Positions 1,111-64,000 of a DNA stretch of 64,000 bases are shown piece after piece. The stretch covers positions 54,203,473 to 54,267,472 of the forward strand of contig OX419758.1 in the NCBI GenBank assembly GCA_948567375.1, given 5' to 3'. The notes beneath the pieces are model-generated. The model was not told the origin of the DNA and ran no database searches. It was given only the letters and a program-made list of their open reading frames with translations. The stretch comes from Lunularia cruciata. Lineage: Eukaryota; Streptophyta; Marchantiopsida; Lunulariales; Lunulariaceae. A program made the translations under genes and the position numbers. Numbering within the stretch: the stretch's first letter is position 1; every line of letters begins with the position of its first letter.

Positions 1111-1269
1111 TGCAATCATTACATTTGGATCACATGAGGAGTTGATATAGTTGATGGGAGGAAAAACTACAAATTTTTTACATCAAACTTGAATACAAAC
1201 CCAATATGTTCTATGTCATCCCCAATCCCCTGTCATGACAACTTGATTTGAAATCTCTTCCTCTACACT

Positions 1270-2460: not shown

Positions 2461-2559
2461 CCATATATGCATCCACCTTGTCTTTCATGTTTCCAAGTTT
2501 TCTTTGTTTCTAATCCATCTTCCTTTTCCTCTTGAGTCCAACTCCCTCCTCTTCCAATC

Positions 2560-2740
2560 CTTGTGAAAAATCATGAGGAGTATGAAGTTGATCTTATCCT
2601 TGCACATCGCTAATTACATATTGATACAAAGTGCATTGGAAAGGGTATCCTTTTCATGATGCCACTTGGGAGCCTCTTTCTCATCTCTAGAATGCACAAA
2701 TGGCTATCCAAGAGTTTGAAGCTTCCATGGTGACAAGGAC
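2560..2740 (+). pseudogene. A1 pol: chromodomain
   Basis: Seen: a stretch beginning HEEYEVDLILAHR and continuing with a short spacer to DATWEPLSHL and then NAQMAIQEF, the layout of a chromodomain (beta strands followed by the WEP turn and a helix). In chromoviruses this domain sits at the integrase C-terminus and steers insertion towards particular chromatin. It is followed at once by the polypurine tract and LTR, as expected. Broken like the rest of this copy. Confidence 0.8.
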
Positions 2741-2765
2741 ATCACCAATTAGCAATGGGAGAATA

Positions 2766-3043
2766 TATAACAATATAGAGTTTACCAATCAGTTATTCAA
2801 GATTAACAAAATAGCAAGTATGCCAAATTAGCCAAGAATTATAACAATATTCTAGAAGCATCTAGGAAGCTACTTGGTACCTTCTAAATATTGGGTAATG
2901 TGCATGCCAAGTGGTAATTTCTAGGAGAAAGTTTCTTGGGAGACTTCTTGATTAGCTTAGCTTGCATGCCAAGTAGGTGGCTTCTAGAAAGAATCTTCTT
3001 GGGAAACTTCTCGACTAGATTAGCTTGCATACCAAGTACGTGG
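2766..3043 (+). repeat. A1 3' LTR, truncated
   Basis: The start aligns with the LTR starts of A2 (56834 read on the minus strand) and A3 (57895), all beginning with TG or its decayed form followed by TAACAATATAGAG-like sequence. It contains the family's repeated AAGCTTCTAG / CTTGCATGCCAAGTAGG modules. It ends at 3043 where family B sequence starts in inverse orientation, so most of the downstream half is missing. Confidence 0.75.
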
Positions 3044-3142
3044 TGTTGTGGGGATCATATGGTCTCAAGAATGCACCAAGCACCTAGTTGCTCCCACTTA
3101 GACTTCACAATTTTGTGATGGCATGAGTAGCATGCATAAAGT
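3044..3142 (-). repeat. Inverted scrap of a family B LTR end
   Basis: Read on the minus strand, this matches the last ~100 bases of the B1 LTRs (6240-6340 and 28890-28990), from GACTTTATGCATGCTA to the terminal ACAACA. It is therefore the 3' terminus of a minus-strand B LTR inserted in the A1 LTR. It could be the far end of B2 (28991-32289), but the middle of that LTR is absent, so this link is inference. Confidence 0.7.
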
Positions 3143-3159
3143 CTGATAGTTAGAACTGT

Positions 3160-3720
3160 GAGCTTACAATGAATACTCGACCTATACAATGAAACCTATT
3201 GTTGAGTTTCTTTATTCTTTCTTGGCTACAACAAGTGCTATGATGTAATCCAATTTCTTACAATTATTGCATAGAGGCCCCGTTGAACATTCAGTGATTA
3301 CGTACCTTAACACCCCACAATTGTTGTGGACCAAAGCATTGGGACAATCTTTTCCAACATGTCTTGTGCACCTTGCAGGCAATAGTCCTAGGACCACCTG
3401 GCTTTGACAAGAAATTCAATCACCATTCATTTCTCTAGCCCTTTCCTTCTTTCCTGGTGTTCTTTGATCTCTCTTGACTTTTCTTTTCCTTTCTTGCTAC
3501 TTTGGTTTCTTTCCTCCCTACCAATTTCCTTTCATTCTAAGATAAGATCCACAAGGGTGAATCCTTGAGTCCCAAGAGTGATTCATTGTGGGATCATGAA
3601 GAACTAAATGCTCAAAGTTGGCTAACAAGTTTGGAGGAGTTTGGAGAACCTGAAACTGGTATTGGAGTTGGCATTGCCAAAATTCTTTCAAAAGGTGAAT
3701 TGCGATCAGGTGCAAGGTAC
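3160..3720 (-). pseudogene. gag zinc-knuckle scrap of an unassigned LTR element
   Basis: On the minus strand, 3212-3397 holds three decayed CCHC-like knuckles in a row, recognisable by GKDCPN, VITECS and CNNCKK blocks at regular spacing. Three knuckles in tandem are not seen in any other gag of this window, so the parent family is unknown. The remainder up to 3720 has a Lys/Arg/Glu-rich minus-strand stretch and nothing else I recognise. It lies between the stray B LTR end and the start of B1. Confidence 0.5.
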
Positions 3721-3723
3721 TGG

Positions 3724-6340
3724 TGTTGTCAAGAAAAGAATCTATATGTTACACTAGAGCTATTTAGTGTGGTAGGTAAACCAAGAGAAAATTATATAGA
3801 TTTTGTAAAAGTGCTAGTTGTAGGCAATAACTTTTGGATTCCAACAATGATTTTCAGGATTTGCATGAACTTTCTAGGTAGTAACTTTAATAGTTGTCAA
3901 AATAGTGGGCTGCTATATGGTGTAGGTAGCTGCAAGTAGAGAAGGTATGAAAGGGAGGATGTTTGAGGTCATTTCCTGCCTAGTCGGAGCTGGTACAATT
4001 ACGAGCAACAAGGCTGTGGGTTTTAGTCTGGCATCTTTTTGTGTAAAGGGATATAGTGGGGTTTTAGGGGCAACGTGTAAAAAGAAAGACAATATCGGGG
4101 ACTGGGCGATTTTGGGCAGAGTTTAGGAGAGAGGAGAGAGAGTTTTGGGAGAATTTGAAGGAGGGCTGGACAGGAAGGAAGGAACAGAGGAGAAAGTTTT
4201 GGTGAGAATTGGAAGGAGAGTTGGACATGAAAGAAGGAATAGAGGAGAGTTTTTTGGTGAGAATTCAAAGGAGGGCTGGACAGGAAGGAAGGAACAGAGG
4301 AGAAAGTTTTGGGAGGATTCAGAGGAGAGAGTTTTTGAGGAATCAAAAGAAAGGTAGAGAAGAAGGGAAAAGAAAAGGAAAACAGAGAGGAAGGCAGGTT
4401 TTTCCAGGAAACAACCAGGAACCAGGAAAGCCTTTTCTTTAGGAAACAAAGGGAAGGACCAGAGAGGTTTGAGGAATCAAAGATCAGCAAGAGAAAGGAG
4501 GACAGGAAAAGTGAATGGTTTTTGAGAGGAATCGAAGATCAGAAGCAGGGACAGAGGACAAGAATTCAGGAGAGGAGAGGGTTTTTGGTAGATAGAGAGA
4601 CAAAGGACATGAATTCAGGAGAGGAGAGTTGGTTTGGCACCACGAAAGGAAGATAGAGAAACAAAAGACAGGAATTCAGGAGAGGGGACGGTTTTTGGCA
4701 CCATCAAAAGGAAGATCGAGAGAACAGAGGTAAGAGGAATTCCGGAGAGGAGAGGGTCTTTGGCATCATCAAAACGAAGAATGAGAGAACAGAGGTAAGA
4801 GGAATTCAGGAGAGGAGAGGGTCACTGGCATCATCAAAAGGAAGATAGAGAGACAAAGGACAGGAATTTAGGAGAGGAGAGGGTTTTGGCACCATTGAAA
4901 GGAAGATCAAGAGAACAGAGGTAAGAAAAATTCAGGAAAGGAGAGGGTTTTGGCACCATCGAAAGGAAGATAGGGAGACGAGGACAGTCATCAAAACGAG
5001 AGAAAAGGGAAGAGGAATCAAGAGGACAGGAGAAGTATCAAAAGGAGAGAAAAGGGGAGGAAATCAAAAAGGGAAGACATGAATTCAGGAAATGAGAGGA
5101 TTTTGGTGAATCGAAAGGAGAGAGAAGGATCAAAACCAAGGCAGGAGTGAGGCATCGAAAGGAAAGACAGAGTGGAGGGTTTCGGGAAATCAGAAGGATC
5201 GAAGGCAACGCAGGAGTGAAGATTGAAAGGGAAGACAGGAAAGGTCTTTGTGAGAACAAAGGACACGAAGAATTTTCTAAGAGGACAAGAGGTCAGGAAA
5301 AACTGAACGATAGGAAGTCGTATCAAAAGGAGAGAGGAGAGTTCAGAAAGCGAAAGGGAAATCAGGAGAGGGTTTTAGAGAGACATGAAAAATAGGAAGT
5401 CAGGAGAAAGGTTTTTTGAAATGGAGAGAAATCAGACAGGGAATTGAGAAAGCGCAAAACAGGGGACAATGGGTAGGAAAAATTGGTTTTCAGGAGAAGG
5501 GTTTTTGAGAGACCAGAAATCAAGCAGGAGAATAAGAAGAAACCAGAAGAAGGGTTTCGAGAGACCAAAGGAATATCAAAAAGAAGAAGGTGAAGGGGAT
5601 TTTTGAGAGGAGTTTCATAAAAAAGGAGGAAGGAAGTTTTTGAAAGGAATATCAAAAAGAAAACAGGAAAGGATTTTGTGAAAGGGGTATAGAAAAGAAG
5701 GTGAAGGTGTTTTCTGAGAGTGAGGAGTAGAATTTGGCTATATTTAGTTTATATTTTTCTTATTTGAACATTTGTCAAGAAACTTCAAAGTGGTCATTAT
5801 CATGGTCCAAAGCTACTTGACTTCCGCAATTGGAGTTATCAATTGTGGTGTTTGATCTTTTGTGAGCTTTACAAGATTCTTGGTGTTGTCAAATTTGTTC
5901 AATTTTATCAATAGGAGTGACATATGAAAGAAACTTTGTTCTTATTGTTTTCAGGTCCAATTTCTATAGACAAAACAGATCACCAATTTGGTTGCACTAA
6001 GTTGTATCTGACTTTTACAGCTTATGGTTGGTTAGTTAGTCACACAAGGTCCATAAATACAAAGATGAAGTTTTAAAGATCACTAGTGGTAGCAAGTGAA
6101 ACATGAAAGTCAAGATTATTGCAAAAAATCTTTACTCAAAGGACCCTTAGGAGGAGCTTACAATAAGTTCAATTGCAGATGAGTTACTCCGGTGAAAAGA
6201 GGCAGTCACCGTAGATACCAGAGAGAAGAGGCCGCTTTTAGACTTTATGCATGCTACTTGTGCCATTGGAAAATTGTGAAGTCTAAGTGCGAGCAGCTAG
6301 GTGCCCAATGCATTCGTGAGATCATACAATCCCCGTGACA
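3724..6340 (+). repeat. B1 5' LTR (about 2.6 kb)
   Basis: It starts TGTTGTCA and ends CCGTGACA, matching the 3' LTR start (20325) and end (28990). Three zones are visible: a unique head (3724-4085), a strongly purine-rich zone of repeats (4090-5740), and a unique tail (5740-6340) with TTTGTGAGCTTTACAAGATT-like sequence shared with 28450-28990. It is longer than the 3' LTR after removal of F (about 2.3 kb), mostly through different repeat numbers in the purine-rich zone. Confidence 0.85.
4090..5740. repeat. Purine-rich (GA) minisatellite zone in the B LTR
   Basis: The plus strand is nearly all A and G for about 1.6 kb. Between 4556 and 4980 a unit of about 64 bases (GGAATTCAGGAGAGGAGAGG followed by a CACCAT/CATCAT-AAAGGAAGATAGAG core) recurs about seven times. 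Between 4145 and 4330 another unit built on GGAGGGCTGGACAGGAAGGA repeats. The 3' LTR carries the same zone at 20690-21738 and 28100-28360, and B2 carries its complement at 29060-30250. Confidence 0.8.
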
Positions 6341-20324: not shown

Positions 20325-21738
20325 TGTTATCATGAAAAAAAATCTACATGTTACATTGGTACTATTTAGTGTGGTAAGTAAACCAAGAGAAAATTATGAA
20401 GCTTTAGTAAAAGTGTTACTTGTAGGCGTTAACTTTTGGATTCCAATAGTGATTTTCAGTATTTGCGTGAACTTTCTAGGTAGTAACTTAATAGTTGTCA
20501 AAATAGTGGACTGCTATATATTGTAGGTAGCCACAAGTAGAGAAGGTATGAACGATGTTGGAGGTCATTTCCTGCCTAGTAGGAGCTGGTACAACTACGG
20601 GCTGTGGGTTTTGGTCCGGCGTCTTTTTGTGTAAAGGGATATAGTGGGGTTTTAAGGGCACCATGAGAAAAAAGAAGACAATATCGGGAGACGATGGTAT
20701 CTTTGGCAGAGTTCAAGAGAGAGGGGGCAGAGTTTTGGGAGACTTTGAAGGAGGGCTGCACAGAAAGGAAGGAATAGAGGAGAGAGTTTTGGTGAGAATT
20801 CAAAGGAGGGCTGGACAGGAAGAAAAGAACAAAGGAGAGAGTTTTGGTGAGACTTCGAAGGAGGGTTGGATAGGAAGGAAGGAATAGAGGAGAGAATTTT
20901 TGACGAATAGAAAGAAAGGCAGAAAAGAAGTGAAAAGAAAAGAAAAACATAGAGGAAGGAAGGTTGGGAAGGATCGACCAAGGAAGGAATTTTTTGAGGA
21001 AACGAAGGGAAGGAGCAGAGAGGTTTGAGGAATCAAAGATCAGCAGCAGGGACAGAGGACACGAATTCAGGAGAGGAGAGTTTTTTTTTCTTGCACCATC
21101 GAGAGGAAGATAGAGAGACAAAGGATAGGAATTCAGGAGAGGAGAGGGTTTTCGGCATCATCGAAAGGAAGATAGAGAGGAGAAGGACGTGAATTCAGGA
21201 GAGAGTTTTCTTTTGCACCATCGAGAGGAAGACAGAGAGACATAGGATAGGAATTAAAGAGAGGAGAGGGTTTTGGCACCATTGAAAAGAAGATAGGGAG
21301 ACTGGGACAGTCATCAAAAGGAGAGAAAAAGGAAGAGGAATCAAGAGGACAGGAGAAGTATAGAAAGGAGAGAAGCGGGAAAACAATTGAAAGACAAGAC
21401 AAGAATTCAGGAAATGAAAGGATTTTGGTGAATCGGAAGGAGAGAAAGGATCGAAACCAGGGCAAGAGTGAGGATTGAAAGGGAAGACAAGAAAGGTCTT
21501 CCAGAGAACAGAGGAAAGGAAGAATTGAAAACTAGGAGAAGGATTTTCTGAGAGGACAAGAGGTCAGGAAAAATTGAAAGACAGGAAGTAGTATCGAAGG
21601 GAGTGAGAAGAGTTCAGAAAACGAAAGGGAAATCAGGAAAAGGTTTTCGAGAGACATGAAACAAAGGTTAGTGGACAGGAAAAATAGGAAGTTAGGAGAA
21701 AGGTATTTTGAAAAGGAGAGAAAATCAGGAAGGAAATT

Positions 21739-28086: not shown

Positions 28087-28990
28087 AAATTGGGAAAGCA
28101 CAAAACAAGGGACAATGGGTAGGAAAATTTGGTTTTCAGGAAAAGGGTCTTCGAGAGACTAGAAATCAAGCAAGAGAATAGGAAGAAACCAGAAGAAGGG
28201 TTTCAAATGAGTATCAAAAAGAAGAAGGTGAAAGGGATTTTATGAGAGGAGTATCTAAAAGGAGGAAGGAAATTTTTGGGAGGAATATCAAAAAGAAGAC
28301 TGGAAAGGATTTTATGAGAGGGGAATCCTAAAGAAGGTGAAGGTGAAGGTGTTTTCTAAGAGTGAAGGTAGAATTTGGCTGTATTTAACTTTTTTCTTTT
28401 TTTTTTCTTATTTGAACATTTGTTGAGAAACTTCAAAGTGTTCATTACCATGGTCCAAAGCCACTTGACTTCTGCAATTGGAGTTTTCATTTGTGGTGTT
28501 TGATCTTTTGTGAGCTTTACAAGATTCTTGGTGTTGTCAAATTTGTTTAGTTTTATCAGTAAGAGTGACAGATGAAAGGAAGCTTTGTTCTCAGTGTTTT
28601 CAGGTCCAATTTTTGTGGATAGAACAGATCACCAATTTGGTTGCACTAAGTTGTATCTAACTCTTAGAGCTTATGGTCTGTTAGTTAGTCACACAAGATC
28701 CAGAAAGACAAAGATGAAGCTTTAAAGATCATGAGCGGTAGCAAGTGATACATGAAAGTCAAGATTATCACAAGAAATCCTAACTCAAAGGACCCTTAGG
28801 AGGAGCTTATAGTAAAGTTCAATTGTTGATGAGTTACTCTGGTGAAAAGAAGCAATCACCGTAGAAGACAAAGAGAAGAGACTGCTTGTAGACTTTATGC
28901 ATGCTATCCGTGCCATTAGAAAATTGTGAAGTCTAAGTGCAAGCAGCTAGGTGCATGGTGCATTCTTGAGATCATATGATCTGCACGACA

Positions 28991-30752
28991 CCAAAAGGAC
29001 TCCAAAGAAACTTATAACCTAAATATGCAAAGAATCTTAAAGTTGGAGGCTGCACCTCAAGATCTTGATGACCATATTACCACTACCACCAAAACTCTCC
29101 TTGCTTCCCTATCTCCCTTTCCTTTCTCTGCCTTTTGATGGTTTCCTTTCTCCTTCATTTTGTTTCTCTCTCTCTCTCTCTGCCATTTTGTGGTTTCCTT
29201 TCCCTTTGTTTCTATCTTCATTTCCTCTCTTTGCCTTTCAGTTCCCTTCTCTTGCTTGTTTCTCCCTCTCTGCCTTTCTGTCTTTGATCCTTCTCTCTGC
29301 CTTCTTGTTTCTAGATTCCTCTCTTTGCCTTCTTGTCTTTGATTCATCTCTCTGCTTTCCTATCTCCTTGATTTCTCCTTGCCTTTAGATGGTGTCTTGC
29401 TTTCCTTCATTTTTGTCTTCTCTCTCTTGTCCTTTTGGTGATTTCCTTCTCTTGCTTTCTTGTTTCTCCCTCTTTGCCTTTCTATCTTTGATCTTTCTCT
29501 CTGCCTTCATTTCTTTGATTCTTCTCTTTGCTTTCTTGTCTTCTTTATTCCTCTCTACCTTTTGATGGTTTCTTGCTTTCCTTCATTTTGTTCTATCTCT
29601 CTTTGCCTTTCTATGATTTCCTTCTCATGCTTCCTATTTCTCCCTCTTTATCTTTGTATCTTTGATCCCTCTCTCTACCTTGTGTTTCTTGATTCCTCTC
29701 TCTGCCTTCTTGTCTTTGATTCCTCTCCCTACTTTCCTATCTTCTCAATTCCTCTCTTTGCCTTTCATTTTCCTTCTTGTGCTTTCTTGTTTCTCCTTCT
29801 TTGCCATTTTGTCTTTGATCCTTCTCTTTGCCTTCTTGTTTCTTGATTCCTCTCTCTCTTTTCCTATCTTCTCTATACCTCTTTGCCTTTTGATGGTTTC
29901 CTACTTTCCTTTTTTTTGTCTGTTGTTCTCTCTCTCTCTACTTCTTTATGATGTCCTTCTCCTACTTTCCTATTTCCACTCTTTTCCTTTTTGTGTTCCT
30001 CTCTCTTTTTGTATCTTCTCTATTCCTCTCTGCCTTTTCATGGTTTCCTACTTTCCTTCATTTTGTTTTTGTTCTCTCTCTCTTTTGCCTATCTATGATT
30101 TCCTTCTCTTGCTTTCCTGTTTCTCCTCTCTGCCTTTCTATCTTTGATCCTTCTCTTTGCCTTCCTTTTTCTTGATTCATCTCTATGCCTTCTTGATTTC
30201 ACTTCTGCCTTTTCCTACCTTGTTGCTCTTCTGCAATCTCTCCTTTGCCTTTTCCTTCCTTTTGTTCTCAAGCTCTTCTCCTCCTTGACCTCTTCCCCTT
30301 CCACCCTTGTACCACTAATTTTGTTTGTCTAAGCCCTCAACAATAAAGCATACTCCTCGACTCAATCCACAACTTTGGCCTTATCACTGCCATGTTGCCC
30401 GAGCAAGCAAGTATCGACTAAACCATCCCTAACAACCTCTCCTTGTCCATCCACCAAGAAATTTTACTCTATTTCTCAGGTCCTCTTTAGCAACAACAAC
30501 AACTCCACTATTTTTGCAACTATTAAAGTTACTACCTAAAAAGTACTATGTACTCTAGGTAAAAAATAAATTGCTATAGATGACAATATTTTATGTGAAA
30601 TAAAAACTCTAATTTCAGCAAATACTAAAATTCAAAACCAGAAATTTCAAATTTGCAACCAAACGTTTCACTATATGTAAATAATTTTCTAATAATTTAC
30701 CTAACACACTAAATTTCACTAATGTAACATATAGATGGTTTTCTCAACAACA
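28991..30752 (-). repeat. B2 3' LTR, partial, pyrimidine-rich on the plus strand
   Basis: The head (30752 to about 30330) matches the B1 LTR head. 29060-30250 is the complement of a purine-rich zone, with TTTGATTCCTCTCTCTGCCT-like units recurring and a pure TC run near 29163-29182. The tail common to B LTRs is absent. 28991-29075 matches nothing else in the window. Confidence 0.7.
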
Positions 30753-32899: not shown

Positions 32900-35800
32900 T
32901 AGGACAACCCCGGCAAATATCACTTTTGCGGTAATTAGGTAAGTAAAGTTTGTTCTCGTAGAGATACTGGTCAGAATTGGTCAAATACAAAGCAAAGTAA
33001 CAATCTTCAATTCTTCTTGGTTGCATCTTTAGTCTCTCAGGTAGAAACCACACCCAGAAGAGAGTAACAAGCACTGACTCGTAGTCTTGTCACAACAATT
33101 TGTCACACTTAATCACAACTCCATCAAATCTTTTCAAACAATCTTGATTGTGATGATTCAGGCTTTCCCAAAAATGGCACTTCATTGCAAAACAACTTCA
33201 CCTCAAAATTGTGTTCCACCCCTCCACTGAAGGCACAACTTCCTCGATCTAAATTGCTTCACATCAACTTTGCGCTGCACTCACAAATGCAGAATACTAT
33301 CAACACTACAATTCCTCTCAGATCTGTCAAGGCATTGCTCTGATTGCACTTCACTCAAGATCAAACAAGCAGAATGAAGATCAAGGCTGCAAAATCCAAC
33401 ATCCAACACACACACACTGACTTGCACTTTAAATTTCTCCACACACTCACACACACAAACACAGAGTTGATACTTGGAATCAAGCTCAAGCAAGGAGCAC
33501 TATTTCACAACACTTCACTCTATATATTCTCAAAAATAATGAGCATTGAACAACATTTTCCTACGAATGCCTCCTTTTTAAATAGTGAAGCAATCGATAG
33601 TTGCTAACAAAAATACCGTTCTACAACAACTCTACAAACCTATAGATCCAAAATAACAATGCACCTCTTCATATCTACCTCTTCAAATCTCAAATTTTTT
33701 TCTACTCCAAACTGATGTCTACTTCTTCCTTGGCTTCAATCCTGAAGTAACTTCTCTTACTACTCTTTCCTTGAGTTTCACAACTTCTAATTCTGCTACC
33801 AATTCTAATTTTTCTTCTTCCTGATCTACACTTCCCATCACAAGTAATACGTCTAGCTCTCTATCTCCCGACCCACTCTCCTCTAATGTCTCCACTGGTA
33901 ACTCCAAAGATATATGTTCTCCTATGTCATCTACTTTGGGTTTTGCTCTTACATCCTTCCGAAATTTATCTATCTCTAATTTCACTAAGTCTAATTTAAT
34001 CATGATATTGTCTTTCACTTCCAATATCTTCCTATCTACACGAGTTTTGAGATTGATAAGTAAAGCATTCAAGTCTTTATCCTTCACATTTCTCCTCCTC
34101 ATTTCCTGCACCTACAACTTCAACTCGTGCAGTCTTGTCTCTTCAATTTGCATGTTGGCTTTTGTACTCAACATCGTGTTCATCTTTGTTCATATCTCCT
34201 TCAATGACTCCAGTCTCATTCTTCTCTCCCGTTCCCAATCTGCAAGCCAATCTTCTCTATACATTGCCAATTCTGCTTCAAACTCAGCTTTCATTGTCTC
34301 ATTCTCCTTCTCTTTCTGCACAATCTTCTCCTCCAGATTACAAAGTAATTGTCTTAATCTTTCTTCCTCTCTATATCTCAGAGTCAACTCCCTTTGCCAG
34401 AGCTGCTTCTTCTCTTCCATATTCTCCATCATCCTATCAAGCTCTCGCTATTTCTCTACCACTCTTGCCATAGCATGGATAATCTCTAATCTCGAATCAA
34501 CAAACTACTATTTCAAGATTTCATTCTCCGCTTCTTGTCTTCTTCTTGTTATGACATTTTGCTCTATAATTCTCTCTCTACTCTCCACTTCTCTCTTCAA
34601 GTTCTTGATTACTTGATTCTGCACTACTGCATCTACTTGTAGTACTTCCCTTTCCTCCTCACCTTGGATTATAGTCTTCTTCAATTCCAAGTTCTCTTCT
34701 TCTAATTGAGCTAACACTTGCAATACAGTCTTCACATATGGACACTTCAACTGCATCTCCTTCTTCTTATGTTCTCACTTTACTAAAAACGGGCACACAA
34801 CCTCCCTCAGATAATCTACTCCTTCACTCGGATTTTTCTCAACTTGCAAACTTATCTCCTTCTTCACCTCTTCCTCACTCGACACTCACCTTCTTAGCTG
34901 CAATCGCCTTATAGGAATGGATTCTTTGCTCCCCAAACTTCCATCCTCCTCTTCTCTTACTTTACTTGGCCCCACTTCATACTTTGCCTTACATTTGGAA
35001 CAAACTCCTCTCTGAATTGTAACTCTCTTCTCCTCTTGCTCTGGAACGTCAGCTTCCAATTTTGAGTTACCTTTCTCCTCCATCTCCATCTTGGTTTCCC
35101 CTTCTTTGGGTACCAACTTCATCTCCACTCCCTCATCACTATCACTACTCGTGTCCCCACTCTGCAGCGTGAGCTTGGGTTCTTCTTCCTTCTTTGAGTC
35201 TTCGGACTTGCACTCAACCTTCCCTTCCGACTCTTTGTCCGGCAATGCGACTAACACCAGTTCTCTCCTCGGGTTCACTTTCCTAGCCTTCCAAGGTTGT
35301 GCCTTCTCTACTTCTTCTTCTCCTTGTTGACTCCTCTTCTTTGACTTTGGAGTGCTCACCTTCGATTCCACACTCTGCCCCATATGCTTGTAGTACTTGT
35401 CGCTCCTCCTGATTTACAGGATGTACTGCTGCTCCTCCACATCGGCATCTCTTCTCAAGTCGGGGTGGAAATGGGACACCATCTTGTGTCTCTCCACCGC
35501 ATTGAAGAAGTTCAGCCCCAGATAGAAGTGGGCTGCAAATGGCACAATGTAATGTGGAGGCGACTTGTCCCGCAAATTCCACACCATTTGTCTCGTCCTC
35601 TAATGAAGACACTTTGCCTAGTTAATTGGCTCTCTTGCAAACATCTTATGGAAGAACACTGCTTGGTGCTTCATCACATACATTGTTCTCTCCCGCTTCA
35701 AGATTGCCATTAGAGCACTCACAATCCCTCTCTTTATAGGATCTTTATAGCTCTCCACCTTGTAGCCATTCTTTGTGCACTTCAAAGAGAAGGCATCTCA

Positions 35801-36693
35801 CTTCTTGGGTTTCTCCGACTACTTCTCTTTTCCCCAAGAACGTGGCACCATGCTCCGCACTTGCTTCTCTCTTGAGTACTAATCTCCAATCCAACTATGT
35901 CCATCTAGCCGGATTTCCTCTCTTCTCTTCATCCTCAAGGCCATCGAGACACTTACTCTCAATGATCTCTATCATGAAACCTGGAAAACTAACATTCCAG
36001 TTCCATCCCAAGAATGTGATCAGCAGCCTGCTCAAGACCTCAATTCTCGCGAGCACATCTAACCTTTGAATTGCATGATTTCTCATTGCAAATTCAGAGT
36101 TCTTCTTCCCACCTCCCATCTTTCTCTCTTCCACTCTGGGTTGAGGACTATTCTTCCTACTGATTCCCGACTTGACTCTCTCAACTTCCTCTTGACATAC
36201 CAGTGCATCTGCAACTACACTTCCCTTCCTACAATCTCCTACAGGCCAACTTCTTAACAACAATGGAAAATTGCTTTTCATCGCTTTGTCTCTAGCCCAA
36301 ATTTTATAGTGGTGCGTCTCCTCTATCTTTCTTCACTTTGAGTTTTCTATCAAGAAATCACACCTCCTGCATGCTCCTATCACTGTCAATTGTCCTTCAT
36401 GCATATGCTTGTCATTTTTGGTGAATGGTACCTTCTTGAATGTCTTGCCCGGAAGGAAAGTTGTTACACTGTCCTTGCCTCGGGTTGAGCACCCCCGAGA
36501 CAAAGTCTCCTTACTTCGGGTTGTATGCTGATAGGGCAATTCTGAGTACTTTGCCTTCTGACACAAAGTCCTTTACCTCGGGCTACACCTTGAGGACACT
36601 TTTTTGTGCCTTCTTTTGCCATATAGGCGCAATTTGACTTCTTCTGTACACTTCTTCAGAATTAAGAAAAAGAACAAAAATGTGGGTACCACA
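32900..36693 (-). repeat. Family D solo LTR, copy D1
   Basis: Read on the minus strand it starts TGTGGTACCCACATTTTTG and ends near CCGGGGTTGTCC, matching D2 and D3 end to end over about 3.79 kb. A perfect 5-bp target duplication AATAC flanks it (32895-32899 and 36694-36698). There is no internal region, hence a solo LTR left by recombination. It landed within eight bases of the tip of H-a. A TATA-like CTATTTAAAAAGG lies at about 33574-33586 (minus strand). Confidence 0.9.
33719..36281 (-). pseudogene. Coding-like region inside the D1 LTR (unknown protein)
   Basis: Minus-strand open blocks occur in the same order and place as in D2 and D3: an N-terminal block with MGGGKKNSEFAMRNHAIQRL and FPGFMIEIIESKCLDG, a middle part, an acidic Ser/Glu-rich block with SGDTSSDSDEGVEMKL and PIRRLQLRR, then coiled-coil blocks with MMENMEEKKQLWQRELTLRY and DLNALLINLKTRVDRKILEV. 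I recognise no known domain. It is broken a handful of times. A host-like regulatory or structural role cannot be inferred from sequence alone. Confidence 0.65.
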
Positions 36694-50331: not shown

Positions 50332-50744
50332 TGTGGTGCCCACATTTTTTGTTTTTTCCAAAATAAAGGAGAAGAAGTGTATAGAGAAGTCGGATTGCGC
50401 CTGTATGGCCGAAGAAGACAAAGAAAATTGTCTTCGGGGTGAAACCCGAAGTAAAGTGACTTTGGGTCATAAGGCGAAGTACTATGAAATGCCATGTCAG
50501 CATACAATACAAAGTAAATTGTCTTCGGCTCAGGGGGAGCTCAACCCGAGACAAAGACAGTCTAACAACCTTTTGTCGGGGCGAGAAATTCAAGAAGGGG
50601 CCGTTTCAAAATTGGTGGCTCATATGCGTGAAGGTTGAGTGACAGTGACAAGTGCATGCCGGAGGTGTGATTTCTCGGTAGAAACTCCAGGCGACGGAAG
50701 AAAAAGAAGTGCAACTCTATAAAAATTGAAACTGCAACAACGAA

Positions 50745-53317
50745 ATGTCGAGCAATTTTCCTTCACCGTTGAGGAGTCATCTTGCAGGTGATCGGGGAAA
50801 GGGAAATAAAGTTGGACTCGTGTTAGTGCGCAAGGGAGAAGTCAAGAGAGAGAAATTGAGAGACCAAAAGAAAGTAGAAGAGATGGGAGGAGGGAAGAAG
50901 AACTCCGAATTTGCGGTGAGAAATCATGCAATTTGGAGATTAGATATAGTAGCGAGGATCAAAGTCTTGAGCCGACTTCGGATCACTTTTCTGGCATGGA
51001 ATTGGAACGTAAGTTTTCCAGGATTCATGATAGAAATCATCGAGAGTAAATGTCTCGATGGGCCCGAGGAATAAGGGAAGAGAGGAAATCTGGCTTGCTG
51101 GACAGAGTCGGATTGGAGACTCGTACTCGGGAAAGAGGCAGGCTCGGAGCAAGGGGCCACATTCTTGGGAAAAGGAGAGATAGCCCAAGAAACGTAGGAG
51201 GTGAGAGATGCTTTCTCGTCGAAGAGGACGAAGAATGGGTATAAAGTTGAGAGCTATAAAGACCCTATGAGGAGAGGAATTGTGAGTGCACTAATGGCCC
51301 TCCTGGAGCCAGAGAGAACTACCTATGTGATGAAACACCAAGCGGTGTTCTTTCACAAGTTATTTGTAGAAGAACCGATCAATTGGGCAAGGTGCTTTCA
51401 CGGAAGAACGAGGCAAATGGTGTGGAATCTGCGGGATAAGTCGCCTCCACACTACATCGTACCATTTGCAGCCCATTTTTACCTCGGGTAAATCTGCTCA
51501 ATTTGGCGGAGCGTAATTGAATGGTGTCTCATTTCCATCCTGATTTGAGAAGAGAAGTCAACACGGAGGAGCAGCAATACATTCTCCAAATCCGGAGCAC
51601 AGACGATTACTACGCGAAGACAGGGAAGAACGTGGAGGTCATTGAAAGTACCCCGACGAAGAAGAGAACTCGGCAAGCAGAAGCCAAAGAAAACAAGAAA
51701 CCTCGGAAAATGCAGAAAAATAACCCGAGGCGAGGAATGGTGGTGATTGAGTCGGAAGATGAAGACTCAGAAGGCGAAGCCGAGCTCAAGACGGAGGACT
51801 CGGACCGTGAGGAGGAACATGAGCTGACATTGCAAAGTGGAGATACGAGCAGTGACAGTGAGGAAGGAGGAGAGATGACATCGGTACCGGCGGCTAAAGA
51901 ATACAAAGAAGAAATGCAAGCCGAAGTAGAAACCGAAGACAATGCGGCGCTGGAAGACGAAGTACTAGTGTGCGAGGAGAAGAAGATCGCAGTACAGCGA
52001 GGAATTCGCTCAAGACGTAAGGCGAAGTGTGAAGCGGGACCGAGTAGAGTGAAGGAAGAGGTAGAAGGAAGCTCGGGCAGTGAGGCATCGATCCCGATAC
52101 GAAGACTCTAGAGAAGAAGGCAACTATCAAGAGAACACGAGGAAAGAAGAGAGACCACTCCGTGGGAGGACGAAGTTCTCAATAATGGAGTAGATTACCT
52201 GCAGATGGTAGTATGCTCGCTGTTGGTGAAGATGGAGAAGAAGAAGAAGGAGATGTAGTCTACTTGTCCAGAGGTAAAGACTGTGTTGCAGGTCTTATCA
52301 AGATTAGAAGAAGAAAACTCGGAGTTGAAGAAGAGTATAACCCGAGGTGAGGAAGAGAGAGAAGTACTGCGGGCGGAAGCAGTCGAGAGGAGTCAAGTAA
52401 TCGAAGACTTGAAGAGAGAAGTGAGTTATAGAGAAGATCTTGCGAGGAAGAGTGACATCACAAGGGAGAGACAAGTAGCGGAGCATGAAATCTTGAAGCA
52501 GCAGTTTGTTGATTCAAGAGTCGAACTTATCCATGCTATGGCGAGGGTAGCATCGAAGGATCAAGAGCTTGATTGAGTGATGGAGAGTATGGAGGAGAAG
52601 AAGCAACTCTGGCAGCGAGAGTTGGCAGCGAGATATAGAGAAGAAGAGAGATTACAAGAATTACTTCGTAATCAGGAAGAGAAGGTTGAACAGAAGGAGA
52701 AAGAGAAGGAAGCGGTGAAGGCCAAATTCAAAGAAGAATTGGCGATGTACAGAGAAGAATGGCTTGCAGATTGGGAATGCAAACGCAAGACAAGATTGGA
52801 GCCATTGAAGGAAATTGTCCTCAGAGTGAACGCGATGTTAAGTACAGAGGCCAACGTTCAAATTGAAGAGACGAGATTGCACGAGTTGAAACTGTTGGTG
52901 CAGGAAATGAGGCGAAGACAAGCGAAAGATACAGATTTGAATGCCTTGTTGATTAAATTGAGAACTCATGTAGATAGGAAGATCTTAGAAGTAGAAGACA
53001 ATATTGCGATTAGATTAGACTTAGTGAGAATAGAGTTAGAAAAGCTTCGGCAGGATGTTAAGGCAAAACCCGAAGTAGATAACATAGGGATCCAAATGTC
53101 TTCGGAGTTGCCCTCAGAGACATTAGAGAAGAGTGGGTCAAAGGATGAGGAGTTAGCTAGATTACCCACTAGTGCAATTTCAGATCAGGAAAGAGAATTG
53201 CTGGATCTGGTAGAAGATGTAGGAGATCTGAAACCCGAGGAAAGAGTAGTAGGAAGTAAGATTACTTTGGGTTTGGGTTTGAAAGCCAAGGAAGAAGTAG
53301 ACATCGGATCGGATTAG
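50745..53317 (+). pseudogene. Coding-like region inside the D2 LTR (unknown protein)
   Basis: Four parts in order. First, an N-terminal block with MGGGKKNSEFAVRNHAIWRL and WNVSFPGFMIEIIESKCL. Second, a middle block with ALLEPERTTYVMKHQAVFFH and PPHYIVPFAAHFYLG. Third, an acidic block of 196 codons (51521-52111) with a basic KKRTRQAEAKENKKPRK patch and SGDTSSDSEEGG. Fourth, strongly charged heptad-rich blocks, the last of 246 codons (52577-53317), with EEERLQELLRNQEEKVEQKE and DLNALLIKLRTHVDRKILEV, surely coiled coil. I recognise no known family. It ends about 115 bases before a TATA-like box, so it lies in U3. It has about a handful of breaks. Confidence 0.7.
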
Positions 53318-53432
53318 AAACCGATTTGAGATTTGAAGAGGCAGATATGAAGAGGTGCATTGTCATTTCGGATCTACAGGTTAGAACAGTTGTGGTAGAA
53401 CGGTATAGTTGTTAGAACTATCGATTGCTTCA

Positions 53433-53440
53433 CTATTTAA
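53433..53440 (+). promoter_or_regulatory. TATA-like box of the D LTR
   Basis: CTATTTAA, conserved in D3 (61718-61725) and D1 (about 33576-33586, minus strand), followed in each by GAGTGGCATTCGCAGT-like sequence. It places the U3/R border about 30 bases downstream and the coding-like region in U3. Position is by comparison only. Confidence 0.55.
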
Positions 53441-54111
53441 GAGTGGCATTCGCAGTATTATGTTGTTTAGTGCTCATTATTTCTGAGAATAGATAAAGCG
53501 AAGTGCTGTGAAGCAGTGCTCGTCGCTTGAGCTTGATTCCAAGAATCAATTTCACAATTGTGTTTGTGAGTGTTTGGAGAAATTCGAAGTGCAAGTTAGT
53601 GTGCTTGTTGGATGTTGGATTCCATAGCCTTGATCTTCATTCTGTGTGTTTGATCCTGAGTGAAGTGCAATCAAACCAATGCCTTGATAGATCTGAGAGG
53701 AATTGTAGTGTTGGTAGTATTCTGCATTTTTGAGTACAATACAAAGTTGATGTGAAGCAATTTTGATCGAGGAAGTTGTGCCTTCAGTGGAGAGGTGGAA
53801 CACAATTCTGAGGTGAAGTCGTTTTGCAGTGAAGTGCCGTTTTCGGGAGAGCTTGAATCATCACAATCAAGATTGTTTGGAAAGATTTGATGGATTTGTG
53901 ATTATGGAGTGTTAATTTGTGACAAGACTGCGAGTCAGTGCTTGTTACTCTCTTCTGGGTGTGGTTTCTACCTGAGAGATTAAAGACGCAACCAAGAAGA
54001 ACTACATGTTACTGTTTGACTTTGTATTTGACCAATTCTAACTCGTATCTCTGCGGGAACGAACTTTACTTACCCGATTACCGCAAAAGTGATATTTGCC
54101 GGGTTGTCACA

Positions 54112-58664: not shown

Positions 58665-61600
58665 TGTGGTACCCACATTTTTTGGTTTGGATGGTTTTAT
58701 AAAGTTTTGTAAAAGAAGTACATCAATAAAGCCAAATGAGGGCTAAACTAGAAGGAAAATAAGAAGAAGTGTGTGTTTGGGCCAAACCCAAAGTAGACCT
58801 TGGGTCAAGTCCAAAGGACCTAGGATGGACAAAGAGAGGGACTTTGTATCGGATAGCATAGCCTGATCCAATGAACCTATAAAAAACTTCTTTGGGGTTT
58901 TCCAATCAAGAAAGTACGCAGGAAGAAAGTGACAAACTTAGGATCAAGAAGTTCTTGATTGTGACAAGAAACAACCTCATAAAATTGGTGACTAGAGCGG
59001 AGAAGCAACTGAAGAATGACCAAGCAATGTAGGACTATAAAATTAAGAGTTTTGTGAGGAAGCATCACAATGTCCAAATGCTACACCTATGTCTATTTAG
59101 AGTCAACCTGAAGTAATGCAAATTGCAAATTCATAAGAAGAAGAGTGGGTTAGGATCTCGGGAATGATCTTCTACAAGAAGAAAGTGAGGAAACACACAA
59201 TGGCCCTAAAAGTGAGTAAGCAAAGTGCGGTGAGAGGACTTGCAATGCATAAATTAGATGTAGTGGCAAGGATTGATGTCTTAGCAAGGCTTCATATCAC
59301 GTTCTTGGCCTAGAACTAGAATTTCAGTTTTCCAGGTTTCATGGTAGAAATCGCGATGAGTGATTGCAAGGATGGGCTAAAGCATGAGAAGAAGAGAGGG
59401 AATCTTGCTCGATGGGCTGAGTCAAATTGGAGAATAGTCTTGGGGAGAGAAGCAGAAGAGATAGGAGGTATCACCTTCTATTGGAAGTGTGATGCCTCAA
59501 ATGAGACTACCGAGGTGAGAAATTCTTTCAACCTACCCCGCACCAAGAATAGGTATAAGGTGGATAGCTATAGAGACCTTGAGCAAAGAGGGATTATAAG
59601 CACGATGATTGCAATGTTCAAGCCGGAGCAAACCACCTATGTCATGATGCAATAGGCAATGTTCTTTCACCAAATGTTTGCAAGAGAAGCAAAAGACTAG
59701 GCAAAATGTCTACATCAACACGTGGGGCAGATAATTTCATGTTGGAGGATGGACATGCCACCACATTACTTCATGCCCTCTGCAGCTCATTTCTATTTTG
59801 GGCTTAATTTATTGACTTTGGAGGAGAGAACCAAATGCAATCACACTTTTATCCGGATTTGCGCAAGGAGGCAAATGCTGATGAACAATACTATATTGAG
59901 AGAGTGCAAGAAATGAATGAGTACTACAAGCAAAGTGGGAAGGACAGAATTGTAGCAATTGACATCTTGAGGGTAGGGAAGAGAACTAAGCATAAAAGTT
60001 GCTTGGCGATAGTACAACCGCAAAAGATGCAAAAGATTAACTCGAAGGTAGTGGTGGTGAAAGCAAAGGACTTGACTCTGGAAGAAGAAGGGGAGTCCAA
60101 AGGAGAAACTGAGTCAAAGGGAGAAGCTATTGGAGGAGAAGAAGAGTTCAAATTGTGAAGTGAAGAATTGAGTAGTGGCAATGAAGGCAAGGCGGAAGTT
60201 CAGCAAACCCAAAGATGGAGTGTGGATACAAGGAAGCCGAGTCCAGAGGTCTCCACTATCAAACGGGGATGTGAGAAGAAGGAGGAAGAAGGAGTCTTGG
60301 CATGTCCAAGAACTGCCAAGGGGGAAAGAAGTGTGCACATAGCTGAGGTGGGGCCCAATAAAGTCACCACAAAAGAGGAGGAGAGTTTGGATGAGGAAAC
60401 CTTGAAGGTACAAAGATCGTAACTTTGGGGTAAGGCGCCAATAGGAGAGTTGTCTGCAGGGGAAGATAAAGTCTGGGCCGATGAGAAGAAGAATGACAAA
60501 GTAGAGTATCTATCAAAGGTCGTGTGTCCGCTGTTGGTGTTTTTGTAGTAGAAGAAAGTAGAGATGGCGAGTGTTAACCTCAATGTGTGAGATAAGTTAG
60601 CAGTAGTAGAGAAGTGGAGTGCGGAAACCTCATTGTTGAGAAGCAAGCCTATGAGAGTAGAGATGGGAGCCAAAGAACTTTGAGTGGAGGAGATTATTTA
60701 GAGTAAGCATTCTGAAGCAATGGGGGAGGATTTGGTGAAGTGTCACAAAGAAGCTAAGGAGAAGATGGCATTGGTAGAGGTGTTGAAAGGAGAACTTGCT
60801 GATGCGCAAGTAGAATTAATACATTCAAAGGCAAGTGTAGCAGTAATGGAGCAAGAGTTGGAGAGTCTTAAGAAGAAGGCCGTTGAGAAAGATCAAGCTT
60901 GGTAGCAAAAGTTAGCAAAACATGGTAGAGAAGAATATTGATTGCAAGGATTGTTGAGGGTGCTAGAAGAACAAATTGCACTAAATTGACAAGAGAAGGA
61001 GGTGATGAAGGCTGAGTTTGAGGACAAATTACACATGTATCGAAATGAATTGGAGGAAGAAAGAAGGAAGGAGAAGCTTAATACAATGGGGGAAGTCAAT
61101 GACATAACAAGAGTGGTAAACAAGATAATGGTGATGCTTAGCATAGAGGTTGAAGGGAAATTGTAAGAAGCCAGGTTGCATGAGTTGTAATTATTGGTGC
61201 AAGAGGCACGGAAGAGGAAGGTGAAGGACACAAAGCTGAATAATTTGTTAATTTGTCTGCGAGAATGAGTAGATAGGAAAATGTTAGAAGTAGGAGACAA
61301 TGTGTGTCTCAGATTAGATCTTGTTAGGACAGAGTTGGATAAACTTTGTAGTGAAGTGCACATAGTTAGAAGACCCAAAGTAAGTGAGGTAGGAGTTTAG
61401 GTATCTTTGGACCCACTACCTAAAACATTAGAGAAAGATAGATCAAAAGCTAAAGAGTTAGGAAGATTACCCATGACCTCAATTGTAGGTTGTAGTGAAG
61501 AAATTGTAGAAATAGAAGAATTTGGAGTAGAATTGAGTAGACCCAAAGATGGAGAAATTCTCAAAGGAACATTGGGTTTGGAAGCCAAAGTCAAAGTTGA

Positions 61601-62392
61601 TATTGGATTGGATTAAAAATAGATTGAGATATGAAGAGTTGCATTGTCATTTTGGATCTATAGGTAGGAAAAGTTGTTGTAGAATAGTATACTTGTTAGT
61701 AACTATCAATTTCTCTACTATTTAAAGGAGGCATTCATAGTATGTGTTGTTCAGTGCTCATAATTTTTGAGAATAGATAAAGCAAAGTGCTATGAGGCAG
61801 TGCTTGTTGCTTGAGTTTAATTTTGAGTATCAACTTGGTGTTTGTGTTTGTGAGTGTTTGGAGAATTTTGAAGTGCAAGTCAATGTGTTTGTTGGATGTT
61901 GGATTCTGCAGCCTTGATCTTCATTTTGTGTGGGTGATCTTGAGTGAAGTGCAATTGGAGCAATGCCTTGATAGATCTGAGAGGAATTGTAGTGTTGGTA
62001 GTATTCTATAGTTGTGAGTGCAGTGAAGTGTTGATGTGAAGCAATTTCAATCAAGGAAGTTGTGCCTTCAATGGAGGGGTGGAACACAATTTTGAGGCAA
62101 AGTTGTTTTGCAGTGCCGTTTTTAGGAGAGATTGAATCATCACAATCAAGATTGTTTGGAAAGATTTGATGGAGTTGTGATTAAGTGTGACATTTTTGTG
62201 TGACAAGACTGCGCGTCAGTGCTTGTTACTCTCTTTTGGGTGTAGTTGCTACGTGAGAGATTAAAGATGCAACCAAGAAGAACTTATTTGGTTACTTTGC
62301 TTCATATTTGATCATTTCTGATCAGTATCTCTACAAGAACAAACTTAACTTACTTGATTACCGCAAAAGTGATATTTTCCAAGTTTGTCACA
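58665..62392 (+). repeat. D3 5' LTR
   Basis: It starts TGTGGTACCCACATTTTTTG and ends AAGTTTGTCACA, 3728 bases. It is colinear with D1 and D2. It has visibly fewer CpG and more TpG/CpA than D2, as expected of an older methylated copy. Confidence 0.9.
59341..61616 (+). pseudogene. Coding-like region inside the D3 LTR (unknown protein)
   Basis: Same order as D2: a block with KKRGNLARWAESNWRIVLGR and TKNRYKVDSYRDLEQRGIIS, PPHYFMPSAAHFYFGLNLLT, an acidic middle with LEEEGESKGETESKGEAIGG, and charged C-terminal blocks ending EAKVKVDIGLD near 61616, against EAK-like KAKEEVDIGSD in D2. The upstream part of the region (from about 59200) also matches. More decayed than D2. Ends about 100 bases before the TATA-like box at 61718. 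Confidence 0.65.
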
Positions 62393-62397
62393 TGATT

Positions 62398-62417
62398 TTT
62401 GGCGCTGTTGCCGGGGA
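62398..62417 (+). promoter_or_regulatory. D3 primer-binding site (tRNA-Asp type)
   Basis: TTTGGCGCTGTTGCCGGGGA starts five bases after the LTR end. It is one base from TGGCGCCGTTGCCGGGGA, the classic tRNA-Asp complement of plant Athila/Tat elements. It fixes the LTR end and strand. Confidence 0.9.
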
Positions 62418-62480: not shown

Positions 62481-63960
62481 ATGTCTGCATTGAAAGTTGA
62501 GTTTATAAAAAAATTCATTTGCAAAAAGATAGCACAAACCTTAATAGAAGAAGAGTGCTCACATCTCTTACAAACAATTCCTTGGTTGGCTCAAGGGAAT
62601 TTTCATGAACACTTTCAAACTATTGACCCTCTTACTTTGTTTCCAGTTGAAGTCAACACCATCACAAAAGAGAATGTGTTGACAAAGATCCCACTTTGAA
62701 CTTGACTACTTGGAACCTAGGCTATCAACAAAATGTCAATACCAACCAGTTCCTTGGGTCCATTAGGTTCAACCATACCATAGCCAATTCCACTAAGTCA
62801 AAAAATGACTTTGTTACTTATCACTCAACACACTTATCAGAAGTATAAGGGGACAGAACAAGACAAAGATCCAGATGAATTTATCAAAGAATTTGAAGCC
62901 ATTTCCTTTGCCAACAAGGAACATGACTCTACGGATTCCCTGCAAATTTTTCCAAGTCTGCTCCAAGAGAAAGCCCTGAGTTGGTATACCCATGGAACTC
63001 AAAAGGGCTTTACACTAGCTGATTGTGCAGACTTGCAAAATGGCTTCTTGGAACGATTCTAGGAAGTTAACTATGATACGAGTGTCCTTGTAGCACTCAA
63101 TGATTTGGACCAAGGGAAGAAGGAAAAGTTTAGAGACTACTCTGAGTGGTTCATGGCTCTCTTGAACTGAGTCCCAAAGCAATCCGATGTGGTGGGTTAC
63201 TGCGATGCCCAAGCCATCACATGGTTCTTTGGCGGACTCTTACCAAAGATTTGTATCTTTGCCAGGGAGAGGAATGTAACTTCCTTGGACAAAGAACTCA
63301 AACATGTCACCCGGTATGAGGTGGCCCTCTCTCACTTGTCCAGCAACCAAAGAAATCGGGAGAAGAAAGGCAAGAAGCCCAAAAGGAGAGCTTCTTGCAA
63401 CACATCCCTTTCTTCAAAGGAATCCTCCACGTCTTTTAGTTCTTCTTTGGAATCCAAAGAAGATTCAAAGCCAAGGAGAATACAAAGAAGAGGAGGAAAG
63501 AAGCCAGTAACACCTCCAGCAAAGAATGCACAAAAGGTGAATCAAAAGTTGGAGATTCTTATTAAAGATTTTATGGATTTCAAGATCCAAAGAAAGCCTT
63601 CATCATTTGGCAGCCAAATGTATGGTGCACTACATGTGGTAAATCCGGCCATGCTAATACTGAGTGTTTGACTTGCACTACATTTTTTGTGCAACAAATT
63701 GATTGGGTTCTAGGTTGGGACCAAAGTGAGGAAGATGAGGTTGTGTACCAGACTCTTGAGATATAACTTCAAGCAAGCATATTGTATCAAGGTCCAAGGT
63801 ATGGACCCAAGGAGTATAACAACAATGCCCCCCCACAAGGACTACCAATGGGTGGCCAAAATAAGCCTCAAAATGTTGCATCGGGTGCTTGTTATAATTG
63901 TGGCTCAATGGGACATTGGTCTCCAAACTGTCCGGAGCCAAGATGGTAAATTGGGTATGT
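62481..63960 (+). pseudogene. D3 gag
   Basis: Seen: an N-terminal block (62481-62699); the capsid domain with TYQKYKGTEQDKDPDEFIKE, QEKALSWYTHGTQKGF and ADLQNGFLERF (62805-63062); the end of the capsid (WFFGGLLPKICIFARER); a Lys/Ser-rich linker; and two zinc knuckles, CTTCGKSGHANTEC (about 63625-63670) and CYNCGSMGHWSPNC (about 63889-63930). This is a normal gypsy gag with two knuckles. Fewer breaks than most elements here. Confidence 0.85.
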
Positions 63961-64000
63961 CCCACTATGCAGAAATTATAAGGGATTGGGGCATACTAGA

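Follow-up and report, generated by a model that had tools for sequence, protein, structure and literature searches.

Can the long terminal repeat (LTR) of a plant retrotransposon carry a protein-coding gene? The question arises from a 64,000-nucleotide stretch of the Lunularia cruciata genome (GenBank assembly GCA_948567375.1, contig OX419758.1, positions 54,203,473 to 54,267,472 of the forward strand; hereafter the window), in which a first-pass annotation described a gene-sized coding region in three LTRs, D1, D2 and D3, of a repeat family that we call D. The region was placed in U3, the part of the LTR that runs from its 5′ end to the genomic-RNA promoter. We followed up this claim with the copies in the window and their relatives in the host genome (566 Mb searched). 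Our results show that the region is a coding gene, present in several sublineages of D and almost certainly held under purifying selection while the elements replicate.

A shared reading frame in D-family LTRs

The claim centered on D2, a 3780-bp LTR at 50332..54111 on the plus strand (first bases TGTGGTGCCC, last bases GGTTGTCACA), which its TG...CA ends and a target-site duplication (TSD) of GTTAT on both flanks identify as a solo LTR. The gene in D2 (50745..53317, plus strand) is broken. Its first Met codon at 50745 and TAG stop at 53315–53317 lie where the annotation had put them, but the 2573-nt span is not one intact open reading frame (ORF), as it contains 8 in-frame stops and 1 frameshift relative to the frame of a related copy, L016. 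The gene is also broken in D1 (33719..36281, minus strand), a solo LTR that extends on the minus strand from 36693 down to ~32900 (low end approximate), with TSD GTATT and altered terminal bases. The D3 copy (59070..61616, plus strand, from the first ATG after a TATA box to an end judged by eye from the homologous stop) is old and heavily broken; its LTR (58665..62392, plus strand, 3728 bp) is directly followed by a primer-binding site (PBS) at 62393, and D3 is therefore the 5′ LTR of an element and not a solo LTR. Whole-LTR identity is 75% between D1 and D2, and D3 is 65% identical to D2 over the alignable part (LTR positions 581–3780).

In related copies, the gene is ~840–878 codons long and lies on the sense strand. 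Young copies share a frame that is open over LTR positions 351–2985, with the first Met at 413 and scattered stops; 21 of them together had 100 in-frame stops (2–8 each), versus 1488 and 938 when the remaining two frames were read. L016, the reference copy, is interrupted by one stop short of the frame end, and L035, from a divergent subfamily, has an uninterrupted 840-residue ORF from Met that encodes a protein 42% identical to that of L016 over 649 residues. Compared to D2-type proteins, D1 was 70–73% identical in an N-terminal block and 68% in a C-terminal block, and D3 was 54% identical in the N-terminal block (30% in a second, weaker piece) and 41% in the C-terminal block, which bears out the claim that D1 (minus), D2 (plus) and D3 (plus) carry the same blocks in the same order.

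All three copies do carry the gene, but they are merely three members of a large family: matches in the genome, excluding the query, numbered at least 39 at 95–96% identity to D2 and at least 39 at 84–87% to D1, with at least 111 further matches at 79–89% (protein level) in a third subfamily. When the genome was searched at the protein level with a piece of the L035 subfamily, 112 of 22,199 first-look candidates were scored, and the longest open frame among the matches listed was 865 amino acids. The gene was found in every D subfamily seen (D2, D1/L030, D3/L020 and L035). Capture by a single sublineage, an alternative that the annotation had raised, is thus ruled out, with queries that all contained gene sequence.

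Purifying selection on the encoded protein

Substitutions relative to L016, counted at the first, second and third codon positions, were 97/75/212 for the second copy in L026, 163/143/326 for L030 and 185/167/332 for D1. Counts were even in the R-U5 part of the same three LTRs (28/27/27, 24/32/29 and 38/29/30, respectively), which served as a non-coding control; in D2, this part spans 53460..54111 on the plus strand (start approximate) and is without codon periodicity.

We also estimated the ratio of nonsynonymous to synonymous substitution rates (dN/dS, or ω) against L016, a D2-type copy, by maximum likelihood using a GY94-like codon model with F3x4 and a transition parameter. Values of ω were 0.204, 0.164, 0.161, 0.183, 0.276 and 0.252 for the second copy in L026, the second copy in L011, L030, D1, D3 and the second copy in L020, with log-likelihood gains over ω = 1 of 67, 84, 111, 100, 42 and 48, respectively. 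The neutral control, consisting of the 5′ and 3′ LTRs of single elements (three pairs pooled, one of which covers its first 2.38 kb), gave an ω of 0.906 with a gain of 0.3, not different from 1. The dN/dS comparison that the annotation had proposed therefore yielded values of 0.16–0.28, not near 1, versus 0.91 for paired LTRs.

Insertions and deletions tell the same frame apart from its surroundings. We scored as inherited those common to two or more of the 21 young copies, taking the net count per cluster. One inherited event, of 3 bases, fell within the ORF (2635 nt) and distinguishes all 21 young copies from L016, and five to seven events, each of 1–2 bases, fell in the 1143 nt outside it. 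Clusters 1158/1162, 2982/2991 and 3040/3048, with gaps at differing bases, were not scored as inherited in the ORF, and the last of these explains the range of five to seven. Most indels in D3 and in the second copy in L020 are not multiples of 3, as expected of old broken copies and gappy DNA alignments; they lend the gene no support and were not used.

These data bear on whether the ORF is an artefact, in which purine-rich LTR DNA would be free of stops by chance and protein similarity would simply follow DNA similarity. The region is indeed purine-rich (GC skew 0.39 at 52001–54000), and purine richness alone depletes stop codons. This explanation is hardly credible given the ω values, the codon-phase counts and the frame-respecting inherited indels, and it is ruled out by the R-U5 control together with a second purine-rich repeat family, in which phases were flat (30/30/29, for example) when 3724–5126 was compared with 20325–21724.

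Between D2 and D3 types, change per codon position was 0.196/0.164/0.35 in gag and 0.334/0.305/0.445 in the U3 gene. The gene is thus constrained but fast-changing, and a regulator locked in conflict with its host would be expected to change more than gag.

NG86 estimates of dN/dS were 0.16–0.40 for ten divergent copies, 0.18 (interval 0.115–0.295) for L035 versus L016, and 0.78–1.43 in the other two frames of the six divergent pairs used for ω. Along the ORF, NG86 values were lowest around residues 184–294 (three comparisons, 0.045–0.095) and peaked at 0.44–0.65 at the C terminus. Several results weigh against selection on a gene, or limit how the numbers can be read. The neutral 5′/3′ LTR control itself had an NG86 value of 0.50 (interval 0.39–0.65) because changes after insertion are so rich in transitions; NG86 alone thus overstates selection, and we place weight on the codon model with its transition parameter. 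The NG86 values for D3 (0.40) and the second copy in L017 (0.38) are not clearly below this neutral value, and D3 is set apart from neutrality by the codon model only. Five young copies compared with L016 gave mixed ω values of 0.36–0.83, as expected if most of their differences arose after insertion. Synonymous divergence is at or near saturation in the most distant pairs, with no value for L014 versus L035, and the pairwise tests, all made against a single reference, are not independent. All 22 of the young copies checked (the 21, which include D2, and L016) have broken frames, so most copies yield no full protein today. Finally, because every genome query contained gene sequence, LTR lineages without the gene would escape detection.

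Position of the gene in the element

The complete element L010/L029 is ~13.7 kb long, with an internal part of ~6.2 kb and TSD TCTTA on both sides, and has the order LTR, PBS, gag, pol, polypurine tract (PPT), LTR. A PBS beginning TGATTTTTGGC directly follows the 5′ LTR in L010, L018, L022 and D3, and the purine tract TTGAGGGAGGGGGTA directly precedes the 3′ LTR in L029, L031 and L033; elements with a PBS and PPT rule out a free-standing transposon in place of an LTR. Internal pieces of L018, L010, L029 and L031 matched the Pfam families Retrotrans_gag, zinc knuckle (L018), RVT_1, RNase H, Integrase_H2C2 and rve, with no protease domain among these matches. The resulting order of gag and then reverse transcriptase, RNase H and integrase was assembled from pieces of different copies. 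A chromodomain, the mark of chromoviruses, was absent at Pfam E <= 0.01 from the integrase piece of one copy, L029, that reaches the pol end. The D family consists of Ty3/gypsy-type LTR retrotransposons. The best named relatives of the integrase at L029:7807-8805 are from Marchantia, Calypogeia, Riccia and Physcomitrium, which by itself points to a liverwort host.

In L029, pol stops 11 nt upstream of the 3′ LTR in a frame different from that of the U3 ORF, which rules out read-through of pol into the LTR. Since pol stops so close to the 3′ LTR, the genomic RNA carries the gene as its final ORF, at the 3′ end where the annotation had expected it, and each complete element contains the gene twice.

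A TATTTAA box, hereafter the distal box and presumably the core promoter for the genomic RNA, lies at 53434..53440 of D2 (plus strand), 117 nt after the stop, close to the spacing of about 100 bases that had been claimed. Its counterparts are at 33584–33578 in D1 (minus strand) and 61719 in D3 (plus strand). Across 39 aligned copies, including some just 60–65% identical overall, the box reads TATTTAA in 31 and TACTTAA in 6, and the codon-phase test classes the sequence after it as non-coding. Because the gene lies upstream of this conserved box in 37/39 copies, it is very probably located in U3, with the core promoter deduced from conservation of the box. By position, between the LTR start and core promoter and downstream of pol, it is a U3 gene of the retroviral type.

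A candidate promoter at the gene start

A second box, TATAAA, lies at 50718..50723 of D2 (plus strand), 27 nt upstream of the first Met, and is a candidate promoter of the gene; the corresponding boxes are at 36308–36303 in D1 (minus strand) and 59036 in D3 (plus strand). This proximal box is present in 23 of the 25 copies alignable at that place. It stands 27 nt before Met in D2, D1 and L030 and 34 nt before the ATG in D3 and the second copy in L020, and TATAAA is found at a comparable place in L035 and the second copy in L014, where the Met differs. In D3 and the second copy in L020, sequence from the LTR start to the box did not align with the D2 type, yet the box is retained, which makes its survival telling.

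The presence of a conserved TATA box ahead of the ORF would also suit a giant R region, with the genomic RNA starting at the proximal box and the ORF coming first on that RNA. We regard this arrangement as very unlikely, because TATTTAA or TACTTAA is found at the distal position in 37 of 39 aligned copies and in each subfamily, followed by ~650 comparatively conserved bp and then the PBS, and because it would need a terminal repeat of more than 3 kb, for which we know of no precedent.

Some features of the proximal box speak against its role in expressing the gene. A TATA box 27 nt before Met leaves nearly no leader, the box overlaps Met in L035, the second copy in L014 lacks an in-frame Met at that place, and in L016 an additional out-of-frame ATG stands between box and Met. 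Translation may thus begin further downstream, or splicing may produce the mRNA. Splicing is the core of an alternative in which the gene would be translated from a subgenomic RNA initiated at the genomic promoter of the 5′ LTR, as for the LTR-located Sag gene of mouse mammary tumor virus (MMTV), which is made from spliced mRNAs (PMC3026287). The frame is open upstream of Met for ~21 codons in L016 and 17 in D1, which would fit this alternative, as would a box so near Met or overlapping it. No conserved splice acceptor was noticed just upstream (inspected by eye, unscored), and the TATA box is retained in each subfamily where that stretch was read, making a spliced origin somewhat unlikely in our estimation. 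For expression of the gene from its own promoter at the proximal TATA box, the motif and its conservation leave the case evenly balanced.

Features of the predicted protein

The encoded protein consists of an N-terminal block (57% identical between L016 and L035 over 259 residues), a basic stretch resembling a nuclear localization signal (NLS; KKRTR / KKRSK), a Ser/Glu-rich acidic stretch with a net charge over 60 residues of −22 in L016 and −9 in L035, and a C-terminal half made up of a long helical region. For the C-terminal 371 residues of L035, AlphaFold2 predicted helices of 168 and 85 residues with a low predicted TM-score (0.28); the 168-residue helix is mostly above 90 in predicted local distance difference test (pLDDT), as expected of a coiled coil. 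No clear membrane segment was found, the best 19-residue Kyte-Doolittle mean being 1.47.

Profile searches with three queries (L035, P0001 and P0003) found no significant Pfam family and no PDB sequence match. Athila ORF-1, the plant mobile domain and Transposase_28 did not appear in Pfam to E 10 for these queries, in a search whose HMMER filters drop most weak matches. No homologues were found in a protein database for P0001 or for residues 55–320 of L035. The same database holds 416 relatives of the element's integrase, and the 120 of these that were listed include 14 with liverwort names (Marchantia, Calypogeia and Riccia; 49–77% identity) and one from Physcomitrium, which shows that it contains some plant proteins. 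The U3 gene is therefore either young, lost elsewhere, too fast-changing, or too poorly predicted to be found.

The N-terminal block, NLS-like stretch, acidic stretch, potentially oligomerizing coiled coil and lack of a clear membrane segment lead us to suggest, tentatively, that the protein may be a transcriptional or anti-silencing regulator. Standing against this assignment, the structure model of the N-terminal block has a pLDDT of 40 and is unusable, no DNA-binding fold was recognized, and no Pfam, NCBIfam or PDB relative emerged. Long coiled coils are common in structural proteins, and the protein might instead be structural or particle-associated, such as a second Gag-like, an envelope-like or a movement-like protein. 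In plant elements, sense ORFs located after pol are usually termed envelope-like in the review literature (PMC7264820). The U3 protein, with no clear membrane segment, no Gag, zinc-knuckle or envelope-like Pfam match, and a gag encoded separately in the same element, is unlikely to belong to this class.

Family members, solo LTRs and neighboring sequences

Of 20 close relatives of D2 that were taken, 19 cover the LTR well enough for the flanks to be read, and 13 of these are solo LTRs with a 5-bp TSD (flanks judged by eye). Among the remainder, L010, L018 and L022 adjoin a PBS, L026 is preceded by a purine tract (PPT), L009 is without a TSD, and L017 and L022 are truncated; L028, a partial LTR, was excluded from the count. 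The Kimura two-parameter distance between the paired LTRs of single elements was 0.050, 0.032 and 0.049 (the second pair without its first 375 nt, the third over 2.38 kb), and the differences were mostly transitions. The transition bias between the LTRs of L010/L029, L018/L031 and L022/L033 is strong (kappa ~10 in the pooled ORF part), as expected from decay of methylated cytosines. That 13 of 19 young copies are already solo, though in three relatives the two LTRs of the pair are just 3–5% apart, suggests fast LTR-LTR recombination in young D copies, perhaps because the LTRs are so long. At L031:1238-7783, the 3′ LTR of a D2-type element is interrupted within its U3 gene by another D2-type LTR in opposite orientation.

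In the window, the PBS of the D3 element occupies 62393..62416 on the plus strand (TGATTTTTGGCGCTGTTGCCGGGG) and is presumably of the tRNA-Asp type. Leader and gag region follow at 62485..63996 (plus strand) and match the internal region of L010 at 75% identity; substitutions between the two gag regions are codon-periodic, and the gag region reaches the window end. The window also contains long purine-rich repeats (3724–5701 with 20325–21738, and 5442–6340 with 28088–28990) that are without codon periodicity and not coding-like, and four imperfect copies of a 108-nt repeat at 29251–30218, with spacings of 204, 327 and 329 nt.

Discussion

Taken as a whole, the evidence makes moderately probable a model in which D-family U3 regions carry an accessory gene, perhaps with its own promoter, whose product may be a nuclear, element-specific regulator. 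In this model, U3 houses a sense-strand gene of about 840–878 codons between the LTR 5′ end and the genomic promoter, which would explain why the LTRs are unusually long (~3.7–3.8 kb). The gene would be transcribed from the TATA box at its start into a separate mRNA that ends at the LTR's own poly(A) site, and the protein, in the less secure part of the model, would act in the nucleus to activate the genomic promoter or to counter host silencing of its own family's LTRs. We treat these two activities as equal forms of one idea, suggested by the anatomy of gene and protein: switching-on as by foamy virus Tas, and anti-silencing as by VANC21 of the transposon VANDAL21. A complete two-promoter circuit, in which the proximal TATA box drives a regulator whose target is the distal TATTTAA promoter or the silencing of LTRs of the family, is a doubtful extension of this model.

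Solo LTRs carry the gene sequence too. As gene, promoter and poly(A) signal would fit in one LTR, each solo LTR, usually viewed as a dead scar, would begin as a gene copy and might start out as a free-standing regulator gene; if so, regulator genes that survive longer than gag-pol would be spread by the family. A selected gene of more than 800 codons that occupies the greater part of U3 in a large family would be a direct reason for very long LTRs, and other long-LTR families merit the same codon test. Such genes would go unnoticed in annotation that masks LTRs or looks only at the sequence between them.

Among plant elements, a review (PMC7264820) and a paper on Retand (PMC11963269) place additional ORFs in the internal region, and a survey (PMC6317226) classes additional ORFs as 5′ or 3′ with LTRs unnamed there. 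We found no gene inside a plant LTR in the open-access literature, represented mostly by titles and the beginnings of abstracts, which agrees with the annotators' statement that they knew of none; the D gene is thus an accessory gene located where plant elements, according to that literature, were not known to keep one. The 'env-like' genes of Athila and Bagy2 resemble it as additional sense ORFs downstream of pol of unknown function, but lie between pol and the 3′ LTR, whereas the D ORF is inside the LTR (PMC7264820); with this position and no clear membrane segment, it falls outside the definition of a plant env-like ORF. Gene23 of Grande in maize resembles the proposed D gene as an accessory gene that has a promoter of its own and a product located in the nucleus, but is antisense, internal and outside the LTR (PMC7264820). 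Retrosat2, RIRE3 and RIRE8 of rice are Ty3/gypsy elements with LTRs of ~3 kb (3.2 kb in Retrosat2) and an additional ORF that evolves faster than pol, as in D; unlike the D gene, this ORF0 lies upstream of gag and outside the LTR (PMC3485330). VANC21 is a transposon gene that acts on the DNA of its own family, the kind of function proposed for D (PMC5142408); VANDAL21 is a DNA transposon, and the likeness is of proposed function alone.

The closest parallels in position and layout come from animal viruses. In foamy virus, an internal promoter makes Tas (Bel-1), which then switches on the U3 promoter, and the proximal TATA box of D would be comparable to the regulatory-gene promoter in this pairing with a genomic promoter in U3 (PMC7390438). 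The foamy virus internal promoter is in env, outside the LTR, and Tas is a proven transactivator, whereas the role of the D protein is a guess. The annotation's likening of the gene to Nef and Sag holds for position and does not extend to sequence: judged by sequence search alone, which gave no significant Pfam family and no PDB sequence match, Sag, Nef and Tas are not recognizable as homologues. MMTV differs from D in being an animal retrovirus with a 1.3-kb LTR, spliced RNAs and a product that acts on T cells. Its LTRs are exceptionally long because they encode Sag, and MMTV and the D family thus have in common a protein gene within an unusually long LTR (PMC3026287). If our reading is right, the MMTV-type solution also arose in plant retrotransposons.

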